A stretch of 64,000 bases of DNA from Arenibacter sp. P308M17. GTDB taxonomy: Bacteria; Bacteroidota; Bacteroidia; Flavobacteriales; Flavobacteriaceae. The notes under the pieces are model-generated. The model worked only from the letters and a program-made list of their open reading frames with translations, searched no databases and was not told the DNA's origin. Positions within the stretch are counted from its first letter, which is position 1; every line of letters starts with the position of its first letter. Positions 15,903-64,000 of this stretch are shown piece by piece. Location: contig NZ_QVON01000002.1 of the NCBI RefSeq assembly GCF_003426735.1, positions 248,001 through 312,000 of the forward strand. The letters run 5' to 3'. The translations under genes were made by a program, and so were the position numbers.

Positions 15903-17153
15903 ATGGATATACAATTAGAAAAGAAGAAAGGACTTAGACCAAAACACTATGGCTACATTGCGCTTGGGGGCCTGCTACTGTTCGTAGGCTGGAAAATGGT
16001 AACGGGCAGTGTAGGCAATACGTTTAGAACGGAGAAAGACAAATTGTCCATTGCCGAGGTCGTCCAGGGAAAATTTGACGATTACATTACCATCAATGGT
16101 ACGGTGGCACCCATTGCTACCATATATATGGATGCATACGAAGGGGGGAGGGTAACCGAAAAACTGATAGAGGAAGGTGCCATGGTAAAAAAGGGCGACA
16201 TTATCCTTAAGTTGGATAATATTGGCCTTTATGAGCAAATTTTGAATAGTGAAAGTAATTTGGCCCTAAAGCAGAACGACCTTAGGTCTACCAAACTCAC
16301 CTTCGACTCCAGACAGGTTGAAGGCAGAAAAGCCCTGGCAACTGCCAAGACCGAATTACAACGTATGGAAAGAAATTTTGAACAAAACCAAGCTTTGTTT
16401 GAGGAGGAATTAATTTCCAAAGAAGTGTATCTCACCTCAAAGGAAGATTATGAGCTTTCCAAAAAACAATACGAAATTGTAAAAGTACAGACAGAAAATG
16501 ATGACGAACTCAGGAGGACTTCCCTGCCTGTACTGGAGACCGATCTAAGCCGAATGCAAAAAACGCTGGGTATGGTCTATCAGCGTTTGGATCACCTGAA
16601 CGTAAGGGCACCGGCGGATGGACAATTGGGATTTTTGGATGCCGAGATAGGGCAGAACATTGGTCAGGGCCAGCGTATTGGGCAGGTAAATGTGCTCACG
16701 GACTATAAGATAGAGGCGGATATAGACGAACATTATATAGATCGGGTGAAGCGGGATTTAAATGCTTCCTTTGACCGTAATGGTACAGAACATAAATTGA
16801 GGTTGAGAAAGGTATATCCGGAGGTACGCAATGGCAAATTCAAGATAGACCTGGTTTTTACGGGTGAAAAGCCGCAGAATATTCGGGCCGGTCAAAGTTA
16901 TAATATAAAACTGCAGTTGGGGGAATCCAATGATGCGCTTTTGTTGCCCAAGGGAAGCTTTTTCCAAAGTACGGGCGGACAATGGATCTTTGTAGTAAAT
17001 CCGGATGGCAATCAGGCATTAAAGCGAAATATAAGAATAGGCAAACAAAACTCCAGATATTATGAGGTTTTGGAAGGCTTGGAGAATGGTGAAAAAGTAA
17101 TCACCTCCAACTATGATAGTTTTGGGGATGCGGATAATATTGTGCTGAAATAA
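15903..17153 (+). CDS. HlyD/MacA-type periplasmic adaptor
   Basis: Membrane fusion protein (416 aa) joining an inner-membrane ABC pump to TolC. A single N-terminal membrane helix (about 19-36, YIALGGLLLFVGWKMV) is followed by a lipoyl half (GTVAPIATIYMDAYEGGRV), a long coiled coil (about 100-220), the second lipoyl half (LNVRAPADGQLGFLDAEIGQ) and beta-barrel domains. It follows tolC with one base between, so the two are co-transcribed. A C-rich repeat fragment begins at its stop codon. Confidence 0.92.
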   Translation: MDIQLEKKKGLRPKHYGYIALGGLLLFVGWKMVTGSVGNTFRTEKDKLSIAEVVQGKFDDYITINGTVAPIATIYMDAYEGGRVTEKLIEEGAMVKKGDIILKLDNIGLYEQILNSESNLALKQNDLRSTKLTFDSRQVEGRKALATAKTELQRMERNFEQNQALFEEELISKEVYLTSKEDYELSKKQYEIVKVQTENDDELRRTSLPVLETDLSRMQKTLGMVYQRLDHLNVRAPADGQLGFLDAEIGQNIGQGQRIGQVNVLTDYKIEADIDEHYIDRVKRDLNASFDRNGTEHKLRLRKVYPEVRNGKFKIDLVFTGEKPQNIRAGQSYNIKLQLGESNDALLLPKGSFFQSTGGQWIFVVNPDGNQALKRNIRIGKQNSRYYEVLEGLENGEKVITSNYDSFGDADNIVLK

Positions 17154-51656: not shown

Positions 51657-52858
51657 AAAAATCAAGTTATTTAAGAATAGGTACCGAGTATTATAAACAC
51701 GGTGAAGTGCCATTACACAGTGGGGACACCTACAAAACGCTGCTAAAATGGCGTAAATCTGAAATCATTACCGACGAAGGCAAGGAATTTTTGAATACCA
51801 TAGAAAAGTATGATGGATTCTGTCTTATCCCTTCGCATACGGAATATCAACGGTGCATTAAGAATTTCTATAACAAGTACGAAAAATTGGAGCATAAATT
51901 TGAACCTGGTGATTTCCCAATGACCAAGGTGTTCTTAATCCATATTTTTGGTGAACAATATGAGTTGGGAATGGATTATTTAACCATTCTATGGCGGTAT
52001 CCTACTCAAATATTGCCAATTTTATGTCTAGTAAGTGAGGAACGTAAAACCGGTAAAACCACCTTCCTAAATTGGCTAAAGCTTATTTTTCAAGGCAATA
52101 TGACAATTAACAAAAATGAGGACTTTAGAAGCCGTTTTAATTCTGATTGGGCAGACAAGCTCATTGTATCGGTAGACGAGGTCTTATTGGATAAGAAAGA
52201 GGATAGCGAACGAATTAAGAACCTTTCTACTGCGGTTACCTACAAAACAGAATCAAAAGGAGTGGATAAAGTGGAATCCTATTTTTTTGGAAAATTTATT
52301 CTATGCTCCAATAATGAAGATAATTTTATTCAGATAGACTCAAGTGAAATCCGCTATTGGATCAGAAAGGTACCCGCCCTTAAGGATGAGGGAGAAAACC
52401 CGGACCTAATGCAGGATTTAAAAATGGAATTACCGTTTTTCATGCACTATTTAAACCATCGGGAAATAATCTCTAAAAGACATACACGAATGTGGTTCAC
52501 CAAGGAACTAATATACACGGAAGCCCTAGGTAGATTAGTTTCAGGCAACAGAACCTTTGTGAATAGGGAAATAGAAGAAATATTGTTGGATGACTTTATA
52601 AAATTTGAAGCCGAGGTATTAAAATATTCCTTAAGTGATCTTGTTGAAAAATTAAGTAAGAATAATATTAAAGTATCCTCTACAAAAGTTTCCGAGGTAT
52701 TAAGGACTAATTTTGGGTTGGAAAGTAAAAATGGCTCCTACAACAAATTTTATCTTGCTCTGACACCAAATGGCAATACATATATGGTACAGGAAACAAA
52801 ACAAAAGGGTAGGTATTATACCTTTTTAAAAGAAGATTACATGGATAGCACGATTTAG
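51653..52858 (+). CDS. SF3-type primase-helicase of the element
   Basis: 401 aa. ATPase motifs of the D5/P4-like superfamily 3 are visible: Walker A EERKTGKTTFLNWL, Walker B LIVSVDEV, motif C-like FGKFILCSNNEDNF followed by ... SSEIRYWIRKVP arginine finger. The C-terminus has a winged-helix-like part (KVSEVLRTNFGLESKNGSYN). No primase catalytic site is visible, so it is the helicase part, loading replication of the excised circle. Its 3' 150 bp plus 100 bp of flanking DNA are repeated at 56893-57145. Confidence 0.85.
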   Translation: MKKSSYLRIGTEYYKHGEVPLHSGDTYKTLLKWRKSEIITDEGKEFLNTIEKYDGFCLIPSHTEYQRCIKNFYNKYEKLEHKFEPGDFPMTKVFLIHIFGEQYELGMDYLTILWRYPTQILPILCLVSEERKTGKTTFLNWLKLIFQGNMTINKNEDFRSRFNSDWADKLIVSVDEVLLDKKEDSERIKNLSTAVTYKTESKGVDKVESYFFGKFILCSNNEDNFIQIDSSEIRYWIRKVPALKDEGENPDLMQDLKMELPFFMHYLNHREIISKRHTRMWFTKELIYTEALGRLVSGNRTFVNREIEEILLDDFIKFEAEVLKYSLSDLVEKLSKNNIKVSSTKVSEVLRTNFGLESKNGSYNKFYLALTPNGNTYMVQETKQKGRYYTFLKEDYMDSTI

Positions 52859-52962
52859 CTGTTGAATTGTTGAAGTCCTATTAAAAGTACTTATAGACAG
52901 GCAATTATAAGATTTCATTGGTTCAACTTCAAGTCACTACCCTAAAATTTACCAGTACCATT
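52711..52962 (+). repeat. Direct repeat, copy 1 (helicase 3' end and flank)
   Basis: The stretch from TTTTGGGTTGG to ACCAGTACCATT covers the last ~148 bp of the helicase gene and ~104 bp downstream. It matches 56893-57145 with scattered differences. The gap that follows (52963-53115) is AT-rich without an ORF. Confidence 0.85.
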
Positions 52963-53115: not shown

Positions 53116-53910
53116 TTAAGATGAGGGACAATCTTCAAAGATTAATACATCTTCCTTCGTCATAACTCCATCAGCATTGTAAGAATAGGTATTATGTGGG
53201 TCGCCAGTTGTGAAAAATGTATGTAAGACAACCTCACTTCCCGAATATGCCCATATATCGAGGGCGACATAATTTAATGGAATCACAATATGGTATAACA
53301 AACCATTTTGTGGGGATATATCATAATTTTCTTTACCGTAAAATTCAATGACCACACGGTCAATACATTCGCTAAGTGTTACAAAATATAAAGATTGCAC
53401 CTCTCTAGGGTCGAACCCTCCTTCAACAATACCGTCCAGGTCAGGTGCTGGATATTCATTGAAGCAAAAAACGGATCCACTTACCGTTTCAGAACCGCTT
53501 ACCTTGATATCCATTGGCAATGTGGTATCCCAGAAAGGGGACAAAAGAAATTCATCTTCATGAGGTAAGGCGAAGATGGTGTCGTTTCCGTTTACTAATG
53601 ATACATCATTTAAGGTGTAATTACCGTAGGGAAGGGTATTACTTGTATTCGCGGTACTAACATACTTACCTTCTATCATGGTTACAGACGATTTGTACTT
53701 ATAATCAACCCCTTGACTGCTTGTGAGATTGTAATGTACTTCGTTAGGTTCTAACCCTTTACAAGACGGAACTTTATAGGTAGAATTTGTGCTGGCTTTT
53801 GGTGTCGACAAGGAAAATTCTAAGGAACCAAATTCAAGCGGTCTTAAATCTAGGTCATCTTTTTGGCATCCCAAGGCCGCGACTGCAAGTAAAATAATTA
53901 TTTTTTTCAT
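53116..53910 (-). CDS. Lipoprotein of unknown function (cargo gene 1)
   Basis: 264 aa. Short signal with lipobox (IILLAVAALGC, Cys at 15) and a beta-rich mature part with paired Cys residues (VPSCKGL, SVFCFNEYP, LSECIDR, FEDCPSS) suggesting an exported, possibly disulphide-bonded protein. Not recognised. It is on the opposite strand to the element's core genes and, with the next gene, lies between the two copies of a 250-bp direct repeat. Confidence 0.65.
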   Translation of the reverse strand: MKKIIILLAVAALGCQKDDLDLRPLEFGSLEFSLSTPKASTNSTYKVPSCKGLEPNEVHYNLTSSQGVDYKYKSSVTMIEGKYVSTANTSNTLPYGNYTLNDVSLVNGNDTIFALPHEDEFLLSPFWDTTLPMDIKVSGSETVSGSVFCFNEYPAPDLDGIVEGGFDPREVQSLYFVTLSECIDRVVIEFYGKENYDISPQNGLLYHIVIPLNYVALDIWAYSGSEVVLHTFFTTGDPHNTYSYNADGVMTKEDVLIFEDCPSS

Positions 53911-54112
53911 GGAATTAAGGTTTAGTGTTGCAACCTAAAAAGATAATTTTTTCTTTAATTTTAATCTAATTTTAGGCCTTTATTTATGTTATAATACAAT
54001 TATAATAGACATATTACTTAAAATCGTATTAACGATGTTTTTTTGGGTGTATACTTCATGGCATAAGGATACCTATTTCGATTTCAAAATCGATTATTTA
54101 GTTAATTTTGAT

Positions 54113-56698
54113 TTAATAACCACAATCTGTTGTAACAGTAATATTAGATGTGTCAATTTCTTCCGTTCCCGAAATAGTGCCTTGTATGTACAAAGGCGTA
54201 TCGGCCTCTATGCAAGTTGATGGACTAGTATAACCAAAGTTGTCAAAGAAGATGGTCTGTATTTTTTCATTGGCCCCATTTTTTAGGTTAACAAAGTGCG
54301 GTAAAATACCACCACCGCCTCGATATCCAGCATCGAAAATAATTTCTTTTAGATTTGAATTATTGGTTAAATTAACCACATAGTTCCCTGCATTATCATA
54401 AAGGCCGCTTAGTGGTCTACGTAAAACCAATTGCTCAATGGATTTTGTCGAATCAATGATTCCCTGCATGCCGGTGGCTGAGGTAAGGGCAAATTCAAGT
54501 ATTTTTAAATTTATGGTTTTTTCTAAACCATTAATCTGGTTAATTGATGTATTTGAACCTGTACCCGGTTCATCTCCAAAAAATCGTAATTCTTCCAAGG
54601 CAATATTATCATTCAAATCAAGAACATCTACATGAGAATATACAACAATCAATTTTTTTAGATTTGAGTTTTCAGAAAGGTTCAAGGTTATATTCTGCCC
54701 ATAAAGTGACAATTCTTCGAGAGCCCTAAAGTCTTGTAATCCTGTATAGTCAGAAATAAAATATTGATTGCAAATTTGCGCGCAATTCCCTAATTGTAGC
54801 GAAGTAACCTTATCAATATTCGCAGTATTTACAAAGTTATCCAAAACATCGTCATAACCCATGTCAATCAAATTTTGTTCAAATGCATCGTCAGGTACAG
54901 ACGTTCTGGATATTTCTTCCAGAGTAGTCGTTATTTGTTGAGACGAAATACCTGTATTTCCATATTGGTCCTCTGTATAAATCCTCCAATAATATGTAGT
55001 TCCTGGATTTAGGGGGAAAGGATTGGTTCCACCTATGGTTTGAACATGCCGATTCAAATAATTATTTTCAATAGTGGTAGACCCAATATAAACACCCGAT
55101 GAAGTTCCAAACTGGATATAGCCTTTACTTACTTCATCCAAACTCCAATCTACACTAAAGGATGTTGCGGTAACATTAGTTATCGTAAAACCTGTAACAA
55201 CAGGGGGTGATTTATCCTTTTGCCTGTCTGAACAACCATCAGCATCCACTATTTCTCCAGTCACGGTATCTGAACAGAGGTCATCATCATCATTTACTCC
55301 GTCATTATCGGAATCTATTTGTGAAGATGAGCATCCTTGTGAATTAACGGTCACGCCCGAAGGTGTTCCAGGGCAAATGTCCTTGTTATCCTTTACGCCA
55401 TCATTGTCAGTGTCTTTCTGGCTAGCAGAACAACCCTGCGTGTCTACTGATTCTCCTAACGGTGTATTAGGACATTGATCCAATTCGTCCTTAACGGTAT
55501 CGCCATCAGAATCTCTTTGTGTTTCGGAACAACCTTGAGAGTTTACTGTTTCGCCTGAGGGAGTACCAGGGCATTGGTCAAGATCGTCACTTACGCCATC
55601 TACATCGGTATCTTTCTGGCTATCTGAACAACCTTTTGCATCTGCTGTTTCCCCTTCAGGGGTTCCCGAACATTGGTCTAGGTTGTCTTTAATACCATCC
55701 CCGTCTATATCTTCCTGAGTTGATGAACAGCCTACCGAGTTTACTCCTTCACCGTTGGGAGTTCCAGGACATTGATCCAATAGATTATTAATGCCGTCAC
55801 CATCATCATCTTTTTGACTAGGAGAGCATCCTTGGGCATCTATGGTTTCTCCTTTTGGCGTCTTAGGGCATTGATCTAGATCATCCGTAAGAGTATCCCT
55901 GTCGCTATCTACCTGTGTAGCTGAACATCCTGTTGAACTTACGGATTCACCCACCGGAGTATTTTGACATTTATCTAAGTCATCTGTAATACCATCTAAA
56001 TCACTATCCTTTTGACTAGAAGAACAACCAAATTCATCAACCGTTCCTCCTGAAGGTGTGTCTGGACATAAATCTAGAGCATCTGGAATTGTATCTTCAT
56101 CCGAATCGGTTTGAGAAGTCGAACAACCTGTCTCATTTACTATTTCTCCGTCTGGAGTTTCAGCACAAAGATCAATATCATCTGCTATACCGTCTCCATC
56201 AGAATCCATCTGACTATCTGAACATCCATTTACTCCTACGGATTCCCCTTTGGGTGTTTCGGGACAAAGGTCTGTTGTATCATTTACCCCATCCCCGTCA
56301 CTGTCTTTCTGACTATTAGCACATCCATTCTCATCTACAATCTCCCCCGGATGGGTATTTGGGCATTGGTCTAAGTAATCTGGAACACCATCATCATCAG
56401 TATCAAGCAATTCAAACATCGCAATGACTGCTTTATCAGAATTCATAGTTATTGTTACTGGGTTCTTGTTTCCTGTGGCACTACCACTCCAATTCTTAAA
56501 TACGTATCCGCTTGATGCTTGTGCAGTTACAGTCACCTCTTCACCTGAAATATATGAGCCTTCGGATGGATTTACGGTTCCTCCCTGCGCAGGGCTTATT
56601 GAGCTCGTAAATTTATAAACCTTAATATCCTCTTCAGAGCAGGAATCAATTATTACAGATAAGACCGTTATGAATACTAGGAGTAATATTTTTTTCAT
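54113..56698 (-). CDS. Large lipoprotein with TSP3 repeats, Fn3 and LRR-like end
   Basis: 861 aa. Lipobox VIIDSC-like at about 20, then an InlB-B/Flg_new-type repeat (about 30-92, GGTVNPSEGSYISGEEVTVT), followed by 12 calcium-binding thrombospondin-type-3 repeats of 33 aa (about 97-495, each DxDGDGxxDxxDxCPxTPxGE, ending GCSxSQ). A fibronectin III-like domain (about 500-595) and a leucine-rich-like C-terminal domain (about 600-861) come next. It is a surface-exposed, calcium-stiffened protein, probably for adhesion or interaction. It is the second gene of the segment between direct repeats. Confidence 0.85.
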   Translation of the reverse strand: MKKILLLVFITVLSVIIDSCSEEDIKVYKFTSSISPAQGGTVNPSEGSYISGEEVTVTAQASSGYVFKNWSGSATGNKNPVTITMNSDKAVIAMFELLDTDDDGVPDYLDQCPNTHPGEIVDENGCANSQKDSDGDGVNDTTDLCPETPKGESVGVNGCSDSQMDSDGDGIADDIDLCAETPDGEIVNETGCSTSQTDSDEDTIPDALDLCPDTPSGGTVDEFGCSSSQKDSDLDGITDDLDKCQNTPVGESVSSTGCSATQVDSDRDTLTDDLDQCPKTPKGETIDAQGCSPSQKDDDGDGINNLLDQCPGTPNGEGVNSVGCSSTQEDIDGDGIKDNLDQCSGTPEGETADAKGCSDSQKDTDVDGVSDDLDQCPGTPSGETVNSQGCSETQRDSDGDTVKDELDQCPNTPLGESVDTQGCSASQKDTDNDGVKDNKDICPGTPSGVTVNSQGCSSSQIDSDNDGVNDDDDLCSDTVTGEIVDADGCSDRQKDKSPPVVTGFTITNVTATSFSVDWSLDEVSKGYIQFGTSSGVYIGSTTIENNYLNRHVQTIGGTNPFPLNPGTTYYWRIYTEDQYGNTGISSQQITTTLEEISRTSVPDDAFEQNLIDMGYDDVLDNFVNTANIDKVTSLQLGNCAQICNQYFISDYTGLQDFRALEELSLYGQNITLNLSENSNLKKLIVVYSHVDVLDLNDNIALEELRFFGDEPGTGSNTSINQINGLEKTINLKILEFALTSATGMQGIIDSTKSIEQLVLRRPLSGLYDNAGNYVVNLTNNSNLKEIIFDAGYRGGGGILPHFVNLKNGANEKIQTIFFDNFGYTSPSTCIEADTPLYIQGTISGTEEIDTSNITVTTDCGY

Positions 56699-56833: not shown

Positions 56834-57040
56834 TTGAAAAGTAATAATATCTGGTGTAGACACTCGAAAAATTTTAAGGTGATAAAGAATCATTTTGGAC
56901 TAGATCATAAAAATGGCTCCTACAGCAAATACTATCTTGCTTTGACACCAAATGGTAATACATATATGGTGCAGGAAACAAAACAGAAGGGTAGGTATTA
57001 TACCTTTCTAAAAGAAGACTATATGGACAGACCGATTTAA
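56834..57040 (+). pseudogene. 3' fragment of the SF3 helicase gene
   Basis: Open from a TTG at 56834. From NHFGLDHKNGSYSKYYLALT to the end (KEDYMDRPI) it matches the C-terminus of the helicase at 52858 (GLESKNGSYNKFYLALT, KEDYMDSTI). The N-terminal 90% is absent. It is a relic from recombination or duplication and is not expected to be made as a protein. Confidence 0.85.
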
Positions 57041-57145
57041 CTGTTGAATTGTTGAAGTCCTATTAAAAGTGCTTATAGACAGACAGTTATAATATTTCAT
57101 TGGTTCAACTTTAAGTCAACTAACCTAAAAATTACCAGTACCATT
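56893..57145 (+). repeat. Direct repeat, copy 2
   Basis: Counterpart of 52711-52962, same orientation, with about one change per ten bases by eye and similar length. It ends at ACCAGTACCATT. The pair encloses both cargo lipoprotein genes. Confidence 0.85.
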
Positions 57146-57763: not shown

Positions 57764-58417
57764 ATGGAGGTATCTGAATTTACACTTAAATTAATAATCT
57801 TGCTTATACCGGGGGCGATGGCTGCTAAATTATATCAAAGACTAACTATTCATGATAAATGGACCCCATTCCAATTTATTGCAAATGCTATTCTTTTAGG
57901 AGGTGTCAGCTACTTGACCTCACAGTTGCTACTTGATATGTTTAATGGAAGTAATCATCTTAGTGCTTTTTGGCAGAATCTTCCAACAAAGGAAATACCG
58001 TATGAAGATGTTCTTTGGGCTTGTATATCGGCTGTCGTACTAGGTTTTCTGGTTTCCGCAATCGACCATTATAAGCTTCTTAACAAATTTGCAAAATGGA
58101 TAAAGGCAACCAACAAATATGGAGATGAAAATTTATTTCTGTATTTTCTAAATGCCCAGGAGGTACAAGAAGTATACATACGTGATAAAAATGCAGGATT
58201 TACATATCAAGGTATTATAGATTCATATTCAGCAAATGATAGCACACATGAAATAGTCCTTAGGCAAGTTGCTGTTTTTGAATATGAAACGTCTGATCTG
58301 CTATATGAATTGGACAAGCTTTATGTATCCAAACTAAAGAATGAACTTACTATAGAACTACCATTTAGAAACACAAAAACAGAAGAATATGGCACAGAAA
58401 CCGAAACCGAAATCTAA
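57764..58417 (+). CDS. DUF6338-like membrane protein
   Basis: 217 aa. An N-terminal helix (LKLIILLIPGAMAAKLYQRL) and at least two more hydrophobic segments (about 35-65 and 85-105, ISAVVLGFLVSAI) anchor it in the membrane; a beta-rich cytosolic domain follows (about 130-205, VQEVYIRDKNAGFTYQGIID, EIVLRQVAVFEYETSDLLYE). The layout matches what I recall of the DUF6338 family, whose function is unknown. It overlaps the next small ORF by 29 bp and precedes hsdM, so it may belong to the defence-like block. Confidence 0.65.
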   Translation: MEVSEFTLKLIILLIPGAMAAKLYQRLTIHDKWTPFQFIANAILLGGVSYLTSQLLLDMFNGSNHLSAFWQNLPTKEIPYEDVLWACISAVVLGFLVSAIDHYKLLNKFAKWIKATNKYGDENLFLYFLNAQEVQEVYIRDKNAGFTYQGIIDSYSANDSTHEIVLRQVAVFEYETSDLLYELDKLYVSKLKNELTIELPFRNTKTEEYGTETETEI

Positions 58418-60458: not shown

Positions 60459-63203
60459 ATGAAAAATTTTATAGGGAACTCAAACATAACCTATGAGCTT
60501 TTGGTTAGCCAATCTCCTGTTAATCATGATGTAGCAATTGTTTCTACTAATTCTCATGGAACTCCCGGAGATTTAAATAAAATTGTTTTAATACAGTGCG
60601 GCTATAAAATGTCTGCACTTAAAGATGTTAATCTAGAAAGGGGTTATGGCGTATTAAGTGAAAAAGGATTAATTCCAATTCTATTAATAGTTACAGTAGG
60701 CAATTCGCATTCCAGCACATTATTATTGGAAAATTTGCGTAATGGACTAAGGAATAATATTTCACTTTTGACAAATAAAAAGATATGGATTCCATTAATG
60801 GGTACAGGTCAAGGAGGTCTTACTAATCACAATAGTTTTAATTTAACCATAGCAGCTATTCACCAAAATGTAAAATATGTAACAAATGCAGAATTTATAA
60901 TTGCCTTGCCAAATGAGAAAACCGCCAAAGAACTAGAGGCACAAATTAACTTGCCTCATATTCAAGCCGCAATAGATAATATGGCAGGTTTTGAAACGTA
61001 TAACAATGAAGTGCAAATAGACAAAAACGGAACTTTTTTTTATGGACAAGAAGTTGGTGAGGAAATAAAAAACTATGACATTATTTTTCTACCAAAAAGC
61101 ACTATACCCACTATAGGAAATAATGGCATTTCTGCCCACATTGTAAATCTACTTGGCATTGAAAAGAATTCTTTGAAGTTTTCAAAAGCAAATTTAGAGA
61201 AATATAAATTTGCCTGGGAAACCATTAAAGTTGACGAAAGGATTATACATCTGTGTTTTATAGTAACTTGGGACAAAAACAATAAACCGGTCCCATTTGA
61301 GATTAACTTTGCACATTCCATTGAAAATTTTAGAAAATCGGAAGCATATTTAAGCAGCATTTATAATCCATTAAACATTTTCATTCCGTTTCTTGGTACC
61401 GGACAGGCTGGAATGGATATTCGAGATAGTTTAACCAATTTAATGCCTGGTCTAAAAAGAATAAGTTCGATTTTACAACCTAAGAAAATCAGACTAAACT
61501 TTCCTATAAAATTAAAAAAAGACGAAATAAATTCATTAACAAATATAATTCTAAGTGAGCTTCAACTGGAAAAATATAAAATTCCAGATAATACTTTAGA
61601 AGATGACAATGTTGATCAAATTGAAATTCAAAATGGTAAAGACAGAATCCCTTTCCACCTAGATAACATAGAAACCGTAGATAAGTTAAATAGAGAACCC
61701 GTTGCCAAGTCTTTGGCTAGACTCATTAATAAGGAAATTTTTGCTAATATTTCCTTACAACATTCCTTTATGATTCATTTGCAAGGTGAATGGGGTTCCG
61801 GTAAATCTACATTTTTGAACCTAATTAAAAACCACCTGGATGTGGATAACAACAATTGGGTTGTAGTCAACTTTGATGCATGGCAAAATCAACATATTAG
61901 TCCACCGTGGTGGTCATTTATAGATCAAGTATACAGACAGGCTAAAGAGCAGTTTGAATGGACAGAAAGCCCAAGCCTTTGGCTAAAGGAAAGTGCCAGA
62001 AGGATAATCTGGTATAGTGGTTGGCATAAAATCATGGCATTGGTGATTTCAGTAATTTTTGGAATATTATTGATTTCCTATGGTGGCGCGATGATAAAGG
62101 TTTTAGCTGAATTACCTTCTGCAGAAAATATAGATAATAGTACCACTGGACTAACACTTGACGTATTTGCCAAATTAATTGTAAGTATTGGGTCTATTTT
62201 GGGTCTAGTATATTCTTTGTCAAAATTCCTTTCCACACCATTTTTGATGAAATCTTCTGGTGAAGCAAAATCTTTTTTGCTGCGAGCAGCTGATCCCATG
62301 AATAGTATAAAGAAGCATTATAATAAATTGATCGAAGATATAAATGGTGAAGGTTACAATGTAGCCATTTTTATAGATGATATTGATCGTTGCGATAGAA
62401 ATTATACCATTAGCCTTTTAGAGGGCATACAAACCTTGTTTAAGGAAAAGAAAGTACTATATGTGGTAGCTGGAGATAAAAATTGGCTTTCGACCTGTTT
62501 CGAGAATAATTACAAAGAATTTGTGGACAAAATAAATAGAAGGAAAGAGAAGCTCGGCGACTCATTTTTGGAGAAAGTTTTTCAATTGTCTATTAGAATG
62601 CCAAATGTTTCTACAAAAGCAAAAGAAAGATACTGGCATCATATCTTGGGTTTAGGTGAATTGTCATTAGATTCCCAGTCAAAAGTCAAACTCTCCGAGG
62701 AGCTGCGTGATGAATTAAAGCAAAAGGTGATAAATAGCTATTCAACAATATATGATTCTAACCCTAAAATGTTTGCCGAATTGGAAACAGAATATCAATT
62801 AAGTGAGGAAGATTTTTCAGATATTGCCATTGAAGCTTTAGATGAAAATAAAGCAGACATTCGTCATTTGTTTTCTGGCCATTTTAATTTAATAAACCCA
62901 AATCCAAGAGCAGTAAAACGACTTGCAAATAATTATACCATGTACAGGAACACTCTGATTGCGGAACGTAAATATTTTAATCCAAATAAATTATTTAGAT
63001 GGCTAATCATCGATGATTTGTACCCAGCTTTATCGAAAAAAATAAGCAAATTAAATAACATTGAAGACATTAATGCACAGATAGATAAAATGCTTTTAGA
63101 TAGTGAAGAATTATCGAAACTAAATAGATTATTGTTTGATAAAGAGAACTTGCACGGGGGAATATTGGAAGTGGAGGATATTAAAGATATTATGGGGATA
63201 TAA
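60459..63203 (+). CDS. KAP-family P-loop NTPase with duplicated macro-like domains
   Basis: 914 aa. The N-terminal ~380 residues contain two related modules, each ending with a conserved turn: IWIPLMGTGQGGL (109-121) and NIFIPFLGTGQAGM (306-319), similar to the substrate loop of macro domains, which bind ADP-ribose. A KAP NTPase follows: Walker A GEWGSGKST (443-451), the KAP-type insertion of two membrane helices (about 524-550 and 572-592) and Walker B VAIFIDDIDRCD (635-646). It lies between hsdM and hsdS, 2 bp before hsdS, so it is in the same operon. KAP NTPases are membrane-bound and several defence systems use them; its role with a type I system is not one I know. Confidence 0.8.
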   Translation: MKNFIGNSNITYELLVSQSPVNHDVAIVSTNSHGTPGDLNKIVLIQCGYKMSALKDVNLERGYGVLSEKGLIPILLIVTVGNSHSSTLLLENLRNGLRNNISLLTNKKIWIPLMGTGQGGLTNHNSFNLTIAAIHQNVKYVTNAEFIIALPNEKTAKELEAQINLPHIQAAIDNMAGFETYNNEVQIDKNGTFFYGQEVGEEIKNYDIIFLPKSTIPTIGNNGISAHIVNLLGIEKNSLKFSKANLEKYKFAWETIKVDERIIHLCFIVTWDKNNKPVPFEINFAHSIENFRKSEAYLSSIYNPLNIFIPFLGTGQAGMDIRDSLTNLMPGLKRISSILQPKKIRLNFPIKLKKDEINSLTNIILSELQLEKYKIPDNTLEDDNVDQIEIQNGKDRIPFHLDNIETVDKLNREPVAKSLARLINKEIFANISLQHSFMIHLQGEWGSGKSTFLNLIKNHLDVDNNNWVVVNFDAWQNQHISPPWWSFIDQVYRQAKEQFEWTESPSLWLKESARRIIWYSGWHKIMALVISVIFGILLISYGGAMIKVLAELPSAENIDNSTTGLTLDVFAKLIVSIGSILGLVYSLSKFLSTPFLMKSSGEAKSFLLRAADPMNSIKKHYNKLIEDINGEGYNVAIFIDDIDRCDRNYTISLLEGIQTLFKEKKVLYVVAGDKNWLSTCFENNYKEFVDKINRRKEKLGDSFLEKVFQLSIRMPNVSTKAKERYWHHILGLGELSLDSQSKVKLSEELRDELKQKVINSYSTIYDSNPKMFAELETEYQLSEEDFSDIAIEALDENKADIRHLFSGHFNLINPNPRAVKRLANNYTMYRNTLIAERKYFNPNKLFRWLIIDDLYPALSKKISKLNNIEDINAQIDKMLLDSEELSKLNRLLFDKENLHGGILEVEDIKDIMGI

Positions 63204-63205
63204 AT

Positions 63206-64000
63206 ATGAACAATAACTGGAAAACATTAAAGCTTGGAGAAGTAGCAACACTACAAAGAGGGTTTGACCTACCTTCTAGGAAAAGAATTAATGGAAACTA
63301 TCCAATAATTGCTGCATCTGGTTATACAGAAATGCATAACGAGTATAAGGTTAAGGGGCCTGGTGTCATTACGGGAAGATCGGGAACATTAGGTAAATTT
63401 TTCTATGAGAAAAAGGATTTCTGGCCTTTGAACACCTCACTATGGGTGAAAAGTTTTAACGGTAATAATCCACTTTTTATTTATTATTTTTTACAGACAT
63501 TAAATTTTCTGGAATTCAATTCTGGAACAAGTGTTCCTACACTTAATCGAAATGATGTTCACTCTTTGGAGGTTGAAATCCCACCAATCCAAGAACAAAA
63601 AGCCATCGCCTCCATCCTCTCTGCTTTAGACGATAAAATAGAGAACAACCTAGCCATGAACAAAACCTTGGAATACATGGCAATGGCACTCTATAAGCAT
63701 TGGTTTGTAGATTTCGGACCTTTTAAGGATGGAGAGTTTGTGGACTCTAAATTAGGAATGATACCTAAGGGGTGGGAGGTAAAGACATATTCAAATATTA
63801 CAACTAAAATCACTGATGGTGCCCACTATAGCCCAAAAACATACAATTACGGATATCCAATGGCATCTGTCAAAGACATGCATGATTGGGGTTTCAATTT
63901 GAATACTTGTAGACAAATTGGGGAAGATGATTTTACCAAATTAATTGCTCAAGGATGTCAACCATTAAAGGATGACATAGTTATAGCAAAAGATGGGAGC
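63206..64000 (+). CDS. hsdS: Type I restriction specificity subunit (partial, 3' cut)
   Basis: Starts at ATG 63206, two bases after the KAP gene stop, and runs off the window after 265 codons. TRD1 starts WKTLKLGEVATLQRGFDLP and includes the typical GRSGTLG motif. The central conserved region is PPIQEQKAIASILSALDDKI, and the second TRD begins with MIPKGWEVK and ITDGAHY. It sets the DNA sequence recognised by the methylase/restriction complex. The two different TRDs imply a bipartite target. Confidence 0.93.
   Translation, partial: MNNNWKTLKLGEVATLQRGFDLPSRKRINGNYPIIAASGYTEMHNEYKVKGPGVITGRSGTLGKFFYEKKDFWPLNTSLWVKSFNGNNPLFIYYFLQTLNFLEFNSGTSVPTLNRNDVHSLEVEIPPIQEQKAIASILSALDDKIENNLAMNKTLEYMAMALYKHWFVDFGPFKDGEFVDSKLGMIPKGWEVKTYSNITTKITDGAHYSPKTYNYGYPMASVKDMHDWGFNLNTCRQIGEDDFTKLIAQGCQPLKDDIVIAKDGS

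Follow-up and report, generated by a model that had tools for sequence, protein, structure and literature searches.

A KAP NTPase with two macro-like modules occupies an apparently variable cargo position between hsdM and hsdS of a type I operon in Arenibacter sp. P308M17

INTRODUCTION

What is a KAP NTPase doing between the methyltransferase and specificity genes of a type I restriction enzyme? The question is posed by a 64,000-nucleotide (nt) stretch of the genome of Arenibacter sp. P308M17 (contig NZ_QVON01000002.1, positions 248,001 to 312,000, forward strand; hereafter the window), in which an intact open reading frame (ORF) at 60459-63203 of the plus strand, running from ATG to stop, encodes a protein of 914 amino acids (aa) within an hsd operon. 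An earlier note, written from the letters of the window, had described the product as a membrane KAP NTPase preceded by two macro-like modules, and had supposed that it senses ADP-ribose or NAD-derived signals and acts in concert with modification status. Our analysis indicates that the modules are macro domains at the level of fold, that the gene order recurs in other genomes, and that the gene occupies what seems to be a slot for exchangeable defence-type cargo. With moderate confidence, we read the protein as a second-line anti-phage effector: a membrane-anchored KAP NTPase equipped with two macro ligand sensors and housed in the cargo slot of a type I operon.

RESULTS

Domain organization and operon context

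The KAP domain scores 129.6 bits against Pfam PF07693, for which the cut-off is 20, and it displays the hallmark of the family, namely a Walker A motif and a DDxDRC Walker B motif (from residues 443 and 640, respectively) with hydrophobic segments, as judged by hydropathy, between them (Table 1). The latter correspond to the two membrane helices that the earlier note had placed there, and they are Kyte-Doolittle predictions. On either side, hsdM and hsdS are identified by both Pfam and PADLOC, at distances of 80 bp (hsdM to KAP) and 2 bp (KAP to hsdS); the placement of the gene within a type I operon is, like its description as a 914-aa KAP NTPase, borne out. The hsdR gene lies beyond the window end, 3' of hsdS, with which it overlaps by 4 nt on the genome contig, and its product matches the PADLOC model REase_I (2.7e-248). 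On that contig, the restriction–modification (RM) operon is intact, with hsdM, hsdS and hsdR encoding 530, 395 and 1001 aa, respectively, without internal stops. The G+C content of the KAP gene is 32.5%, versus 40.4% for hsdM and 41.0% for hsdR, and that of the cargo in a second copy of the operon in the same genome (see below) is 28.7%; the low values of both cargo genes fit acquired genes.

The N-terminal modules adopt a macro fold

The two modules, M1 and M2, share an IP-x-x-GTGQ-x-G loop, the GTGQ of which falls at residue 115 in M1 and 313 in M2. Their likeness is not a matter of chance, because profiles built from M1 recover M2: an M1-only profile of eight proteins detects M2 of the window protein with an E-value of 2.7e-7 (in a one-genome search), and with a four-row M1 profile, the E-values are 2.5e-8 for the M2 of a relative and 1.5e-4 for that of the window protein. 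When a 12-row module profile was run against the sequences of the Protein Data Bank (PDB) at E<=10, the only matches were to the PARP9 macrodomain (5ail, 1.4e-4; 32hb, 1.8e-4) and to Thermus TTHA0132 (0.025).

An AlphaFold (AF2) model of residues 1-165, computed from 11 rows, has a mean pLDDT of 84.4 and a pTM of 0.82, and its top Foldseek match is macroH2A (1.2e-8). It aligns with macroH2A1.1 in complex with ADP-ribose (3iif) with a VIA Z of 17.1 over 162 residues at 2.7 Å, and with the second macro domain of PARP9 with Z of 16.2 and 16.1 for the ADP-ribose- and NAD+-bound forms, respectively. As modelled, M1 is therefore confirmed as a macro domain at the fold level. For M2, the evidence comes through a close homologue, 62% identical to the window protein, at locus L006 in genome G215 (loci and genomes are denoted by L and G numbers throughout). 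The 363-residue model of this protein has a mean pLDDT of 70.8 and a pTM of 0.48, and its M2 aligns with PARP9 macro 2 with a VIA Z of 13.5 over 178 residues at 3.3 Å. By homology both to M1 and to this modelled domain, M2 of the window protein is likewise confirmed as a macro domain. A fold other than macro had been named beforehand as the outcome that would speak against the proposal; this outcome was not observed, the modules matching macroH2A and PARP9 macro domains. We do not take the absence of a family from a fold-match list as evidence. PARP9 and macroH2A1.1 thus provide the closest solved folds, and PARP9 also the closest sequences, but both are eukaryotic and only ~17% identical to the modules.

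Membership of the macro superfamily is claimed at the fold level only, as the cut-off of the Pfam macro family (PF01661) is not reached: there is no match in the window protein (E<=1) or in the whole genome (E<=0.1), and a Rhizobium relative (P0011) gives a weak match of 0.07. Pfam, PADLOC and NCBIfam by themselves are blind to these modules, whose recognition required profile and fold searches. Across the 12 module rows, residues D24, G37, V78, T79, P112, T116, G117, S126 and P151 are invariant, and the GTG of loop 2 is conserved except for one row that has ATG. The NAAN and GGG motifs, which we take to be the canonical catalytic and binding motifs of the MacroD type, are not present in the module alignments, where variable residues and G-x-x-G stand instead. 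In the absence of these motifs, and with the GTG phosphate loop retained, the modules look like putative binders of ADP-ribose-type ligands, and not hydrolases.

The hsdM–hsdS interval is a variable slot

A search with HsdM as the only query, at the strict cut-off of E<=1e-150 and in the 311 genomes of one family, returned six loci in five genomes, in all of which hsdM and hsdS are separated by one or more genes. The slot is filled in eight of eight loci once L010 and L022 are added, a pair found via KAP and macro queries and, hence, a biased addition. In the window, the cargo is the macro-KAP (PADLOC PDC-S20, 1.1e-27), whereas the second copy in the same genome carries an nSTAND3 protein (1e-40; Mrr-nSTAND3) that matches PDC-S73 (2.8e-126) over residues 1-766 of 811. 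Elsewhere, the slot holds a KAP with N-terminal hydrophobic stretches (G059; PifA, 3.8e-44), an EVE-macro-KAP (G293), a RhuM-Fic gene (PDC-S23, 3e-123) together with a GIY-YIG gene (G383), and an OLD/AriA-like AAA-TOPRIM protein (G307; Old/AriA, ~2e-27); the three other macro-KAPs found in slots match QatA at 1.7e-21, 1.1e-16 and 1e-15 in PADLOC. At each of the eight loci, one cargo protein matches a PADLOC model of known or candidate defence at E<=1e-5, with the provisos that the matches of the KAPs are mostly partial and that the PDC models are candidates only.

The restriction genes that form the chassis are far more uniform than their cargo. Over the eight loci, HsdM is 70-93% and HsdR 56-93% identical, whereas of the 28 cargo pairs, 18 show no similarity (best E >0.1) and the other 10, all KAP-KAP pairs, are similar (E<1e-5), although in just two cases does the similarity extend along most of the sequence. 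Moreover, chassis and cargo do not keep company: the L022 chassis is near that of the window (87/78%), but its cargo is near that of L010 (43% over 1,120 columns), the chassis of which is closer to that of G307 (79/76%). This mismatch implies that chassis and cargo have been reshuffled. Within the genome of Arenibacter sp. P308M17, the second copy (L085:7393-15633; G000:C12:37393-45633) is, relative to the window copy, 93% identical in HsdM, 93% in HsdR and 41% in HsdS, and has an unrelated cargo; the DNA homology of the two copies breaks off 6 nt short of the hsdM 3' terminus and is picked up again within hsdS. Taken together, these observations suggest that this restriction family carries a variable slot between hsdM and hsdS for exchangeable defence-type cargo. 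Integration at a tRNA gene was considered and rejected: the window copy has a tRNA-Ser gene 4.4 kb beyond hsdR, and none was found in the other eight loci scanned.

The region 3' of hsdR may be a second cargo site. In the window copy, the 3' end of hsdR is duplicated (275 bp, 94%; L004:15116-15390 and 16487-16761, corresponding to G000:C12:315116-315390 and 316487-316761), and the second copy of the tail follows a gene with a weak PD-(D/E)XK likeness, which might have been inserted through recombination at the end of hsdR. A PIN_12 gene is located 3' of hsdR in the second own copy of the operon.

Distribution of macro-KAP proteins

Ten macro-KAP proteins form the basis of our conclusions: that of the window and those of L006, L007/L008 (G315), L010 (Flavobacterium bernardetii), L021 (G290), L022 (G481), L023 (G458), L024 (G293), L025 (G768) and L027 (a Rhizobium plasmid). 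Module searches were positive for 7 of 397 genomes of the family, 2 of 395 of the phylum and 1 of 395 of the class (each count includes the window genome), such that the phylum and class searches contributed one additional genome, G768. An M1 query against plasmids found a single Rhizobium record, and carriage by phages was not seen, neither with the whole protein against IMG/VR contigs nor with the macro-EVE part of L010 against phage records. The KAP domains fall into two subtypes, that of the window and a longer one with long insertions; L009 encodes a close KAP relative without macro modules, and in L024, the first macro module is replaced by a stretch without a Pfam match.

The order hsdM-macro-KAP-hsdS-hsdR is found at 4 of the 10 macro-KAP loci (the window, L010, L022 and L024), where the intergenic distances flanking the KAP gene range from -1 to 80 nt. 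The earlier note had named occurrence beside hsd genes in this genome alone as an outcome that would tell against its proposal; instead, the slot is taken up by macro-KAPs in three other genomes and, at L071 in a fourth, by a KAP devoid of macro modules. The remaining loci are different. At L006, an in-frame relic of hsdM, in which residues ~5-57 are fused to 462-529, overlaps an intact KAP gene by one nucleotide, and neither hsdS nor hsdR is matched in the 23-kb locus, nor is any other related HsdM in the genome (E<=1e-20). L007 (a contig of only 3,999 bases), L021, L023, L025 and L027 give no match to HsdM, HsdS or HsdR at E<=1e-3 within 4-21 kb. For G290, which has one of these stand-alone genes, HsdM also gave no match in the genome at E<=1e-20, an empty result that shows little. 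With half of the loci showing no hsd gene and an intact macro-KAP behind a gutted hsdM, functional dependence of the macro-KAP on the restriction enzyme is weakened.

An EVE-type domain in most relatives

Beside the macro module, an EVE-type domain is present in 7 of the 10 macro-KAPs and in 3 of the 4 that are embedded in hsd operons, but a profile search found none in the window protein. All seven positives are rows of the profile used for counting, so that the count depends on the alignments and the L006 model; the most diverged of them, L025, is 16% identical to L006. The relevant region of the L006 model (block pLDDT 82-93, with one block at 64) aligns with the EVE part of VcaM4I (6yex) with a VIA Z of 11.9 over 117 residues at 3.0 Å. 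The assignment rests on this fold match, since the EVE profile found nothing significant among the sequences of solved structures: the two best matches are unrelated (E 0.061 and 0.092), and UPF0310 PH1033 is third at 0.57. In L010, the region matches (tblastn, 30.3%, 1e-7) the N-terminus of a McrB-type AAA ATPase encoded on pR997 next to mcrC and an hsd operon. EVE is also detected in two KAP proteins that are not in the profile, namely L065 (1.4e-25) and L066 (3.1e-25).

These two EVE-KAPs (L065:6640-9867 and L066:6847-10248) have a distinct and mutually similar N-terminus (YGFxLxKEVxLP...GDxENKVVVDI) and no hsd match in their loci. Additionally, on plasmid pSD15 of Microscilla sp. PRE1 (L030:3233-7810), a truncated KAP gene with an EVE-type N-terminal domain is followed by toxin, ImmA and hsdS genes, and is perhaps a decayed relative of the hsdM-hsdS slot.

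Other features of the window

The coordinates of the features discussed are collected in Table 1. Upstream of hsdM, 57764-58417 encodes a 217-aa membrane-type protein with a weak likeness to DUF6338 (E 0.002, below the cut-off). The product of 54113-56698 (minus strand), 861 aa long, looks like a secreted protein and is rich in acidic DxDxDG repeats, with CPxTPxGE-like units that also recur. The two genes at 53116-56698 are flanked by a direct repeat of 269 bp (88%; 52695-52962 and 56877-57145), in a tail-duplication pattern that resembles the hsdR tail repeat.

Table 1. Positions in the window of the macro-KAP gene, its parts and the flanking hsd genes
Feature	Position	Strand	Basis
hsdM, type I methyltransferase subunit, 530 aa	58786..60378	+	Pfam N6_Mtase 4.4e-95, HsdM_N 1.1e-21
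macro-macro-KAP NTPase gene, cargo in hsdM/hsdS slot, 914 aa	60459..63203	+	ORF, Pfam KAP, gene order
Macro module M1, residues 1-165	60459..60953	+	AlphaFold model, Foldseek, structural realignment, profile
M1 phosphate-loop motif IPLMGTGQGG	60789..60818	+	T and second G of GTG invariant over 12 rows
Macro module M2, residues ~188-358	61020..61532	+	M1-only profile E 2.7e-7; model of homologue L006 M2
M2 phosphate-loop motif IPFLGTGQAG	61383..61412	+	Sequence
KAP P-loop NTPase domain, residues 412-832	61692..62954	+	Pfam PF07693 E 1.9e-37
Walker A GEWGSGKS, residues 443-450	61785..61808	+	Invariant alignment columns
Predicted membrane helix 1, residues ~520-552	62016..62114	+	Kyte-Doolittle window 19, mean <=2.35
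Predicted membrane helix 2, residues ~563-591	62145..62231	+	Kyte-Doolittle window 19, mean <=1.97
Walker B region FIDDIDRC, residues 638-645	62370..62393	+	Invariant D640, D641, D643, R644, C645
hsdS specificity subunit, truncated by window end	63206..64000 (to G000:C12:312393)	+	Pfam Methylase_S 3.9e-27

DISCUSSION

Comparison with known systems

With QatA, PifA, PDC-S20 and Tmn, the last of which is named as a KAP NTPase defence (PMC13273231), the window protein shares the KAP P-loop NTPase. Its PADLOC matches other than PDC-S20 are QatA (1.4e-21) and PifA (2.6e-17; best stretch residues 408-552, for a model without a curated cut-off), and all three cover only the KAP part, from residue 402 onward. 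Assignment as a Qat component was rejected, as the QatA equivalog gives 87.2 bits against a cut-off of 600; no qatB, qatC or qatD was recognized among the listed neighbours, only some of which were covered by the model scans.

The location of the gene has precedents. PrrC is silenced by the type I enzyme to which it is linked in ecoprrI and is activated by phage Stp (PMC2610378, PMC12707154), and the mlo genes of Campylobacter jejuni sit between hsdS and hsdM (PMC5183652); in ecoprrI and at the Campylobacter rlo/mlo loci, as in the window, an accessory gene lies inside a type I hsd operon. However, PrrC is an anticodon nuclease, whereas the cargo here is a predicted membrane KAP NTPase with macro domains, from a family that is also found without RM genes. 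The combination of a macro sensor with membrane helices recalls ThsA of Thoeris: TM-macro ThsA binds ADP-ribose and imidazole adenine dinucleotide and oligomerizes, which enables clustering of its transmembrane (TM) segments (PMC11204291), and nucleotide gating of this kind is the mode that we propose for the window protein. As described in that source, ThsA has TM and macro parts without a KAP NTPase, and the window protein differs further in having two macro modules; moreover, Thoeris needs a TIR partner (ThsB), and the window genome has no TIR_2 match (E<=1e-3). Finally, the EVE domain of VcaM4I flips and binds 5mC/5hmC (PMC7897488), and type I RM combined with EVE has been proposed to cover modified as well as unmodified DNA, in an article from the main text of which the term KAP is absent (PMC7641849). 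VcaM4I and EVE-McrB share an EVE-type domain with most macro-KAP relatives, although not with the window protein, and their effector is a nuclease, in contrast to the KAP NTPase of the macro-KAPs.

Proposed mechanism and alternatives

In the mechanism that we favour, the KAP protein would be co-expressed with hsdM and hsdS, and the restriction enzyme would guard against unmodified DNA at all times, leaving the cargo to answer those phages that evade restriction. Infection would raise the level of an adenine-dinucleotide or ADP-ribose-type ligand, to be bound at the GTG loops; binding may then lead to NTP-dependent clustering of the two predicted membrane helices, and the clustered helices would damage the membrane or block phage replication once restriction alone has failed. 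In most relatives, the EVE domain probably reads modified bases, the very type of DNA that restriction misses. A possible source of the ligand is seen at the G293 locus (L024:16071-17021), where a ThsB-like TIR gene lies 3' of hsdR, with one small ORF in between; its product matches PADLOC ThsB at 4.4e-47 over residues 4-309 of 316. No ThsA was recognized by eye among the listed ORFs of this locus, and the partner of the TIR protein could be the macro-KAP, a hint, from this one locus, of a TIR-derived signal. A KAP NTPase gene on plasmid pCC1099_2 of Rhizobium sp. CC1099 (L031:7690-13438) is followed by genes annotated as SIR2 family and nucleoside 2-deoxyribosyltransferase; the three genes together may constitute an NAD-linked KAP system.

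Several observations weigh against this proposal. The modules lack NAAN and GGG, so the pocket may be degenerate; 5 of the 10 macro-KAP loci are without a detectable hsd gene; the membrane topology of the KAP domain is taken from hydropathy alone; the ThsB-like neighbour is seen at one locus only; and the window genome yielded no TIR_2 match at the threshold given above, other NADases not having been sought. Furthermore, KAP genes turn up commonly across the family, in 51 of 299 genomes, and among 15 KAP loci picked by size, only L071 occupies the hsdM-hsdS slot, with a KAP that lacks macro modules; in one other, L072, an unrelated hsd operon is located two genes downstream of the KAP gene. 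The earlier interpretation is partly supported: its macro fold and the recurrent hsdM-KAP-hsdS order stand, whereas the binding of ADP-ribose or an NAD-derived signal, the anti-phage role and the action with modification status are its putative parts.

The alternatives differ mainly in what they make of the position of the gene. It may mean nothing: the hsdM-hsdS slot could be a recombination-tolerant collecting site and the KAP an independent passenger, as the variation of cargo upon a conserved HsdM, the existence of stand-alone macro-KAP loci and the lack of nearby hsd genes at 13 of the 15 sampled KAP loci would suggest. We regard this as a serious contender, if a doubtful one, because a slot that is filled at all six loci of the HsdM-only survey, with gaps of -1 to 80 nt and defence-type cargo at eight of eight loci, points to selection for co-expression at least. 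At the other extreme, the position may mean everything, with HsdMS(R) keeping the KAP silent until a phage inhibits restriction and thereby frees it to kill or arrest the cell, the macro modules serving as docking or regulatory parts. The logic of position is that of prrC within ecoprrI, and the genes of the operon are tightly coupled. Nevertheless, an effector that depends on RM should not outlive the loss of RM unless it is itself inactive, and the KAP gene of L006 is intact behind its hsdM relic, while half of the macro-KAP loci show no hsd gene; strict silencing by RM is disfavoured on these grounds, and we consider such guardianship improbable.

Two further proposals concern what is sensed. 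The cargo might detect phage DNA that cannot be cut, the EVE domain reading modified bases, the macro modules ADP-ribosylated DNA or protein, and the KAP acting as executor, in which case the window protein would retain the macro reader only. The frequency of EVE among the macro-KAPs, and in L065 and L066 outside the profile, the fold match to VcaM4I, the likeness of the L010 region to the McrB-type N-terminus and the published proposal of joint type I RM and EVE coverage (PMC7641849) all speak for it; the window protein, however, has no EVE domain, and the seven EVE calls come from the rows of the profile itself; we find the proposal unlikely. More remote still is a role for the macro modules as DarG-like antitoxins, that is, hydrolases that reverse the action of an ADP-ribosyltransferase of the cell or of a phage. 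A DarTG macro domain (7omu, Z 12.3) is indeed one of the matches of L006 M2, but inspection of the alignment shows the MacroD catalytic motif to be absent, and no ADP-ribosyltransferase gene was recognized by eye beside the operon (models of such enzymes were not searched). With both the motif and a recognized partner lacking, we rate this proposal as very improbable.

Significance

Each of these elements is already known, but the fusion of macro (and EVE) domains to a KAP NTPase in an exchangeable hsd slot appears to be a new combination: among the open-access papers listed for KAP with macro domains or with hsd genes, none was found that describes this architecture. KAP NTPases recur in phage defence, and the trigger of those involved is not stated in the literature examined; because a candidate input (macro, often with EVE) is here fused to the KAP output, the switch should be directly testable by small-molecule binding. 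The variable slot also provides a route to further defence genes, through inspection of the genes that separate hsdM from hsdS on this chassis.

For the restriction family as a whole, we offer a broader reading only tentatively, and with more doubt than belief: that it is a platform for layered defence, in which ordinary restriction is paired with an interchangeable alarm protein, the macro-KAP turning a TIR/NADase or ADP-ribosylation signal into an attack on the membrane and its EVE-bearing relatives adding detection of modified DNA. The macro-KAP operon would then join restriction, modified-base sensing and NAD-type signalling in a single operon, and, if this is true, phages with modified and with unmodified DNA alike would be caught.

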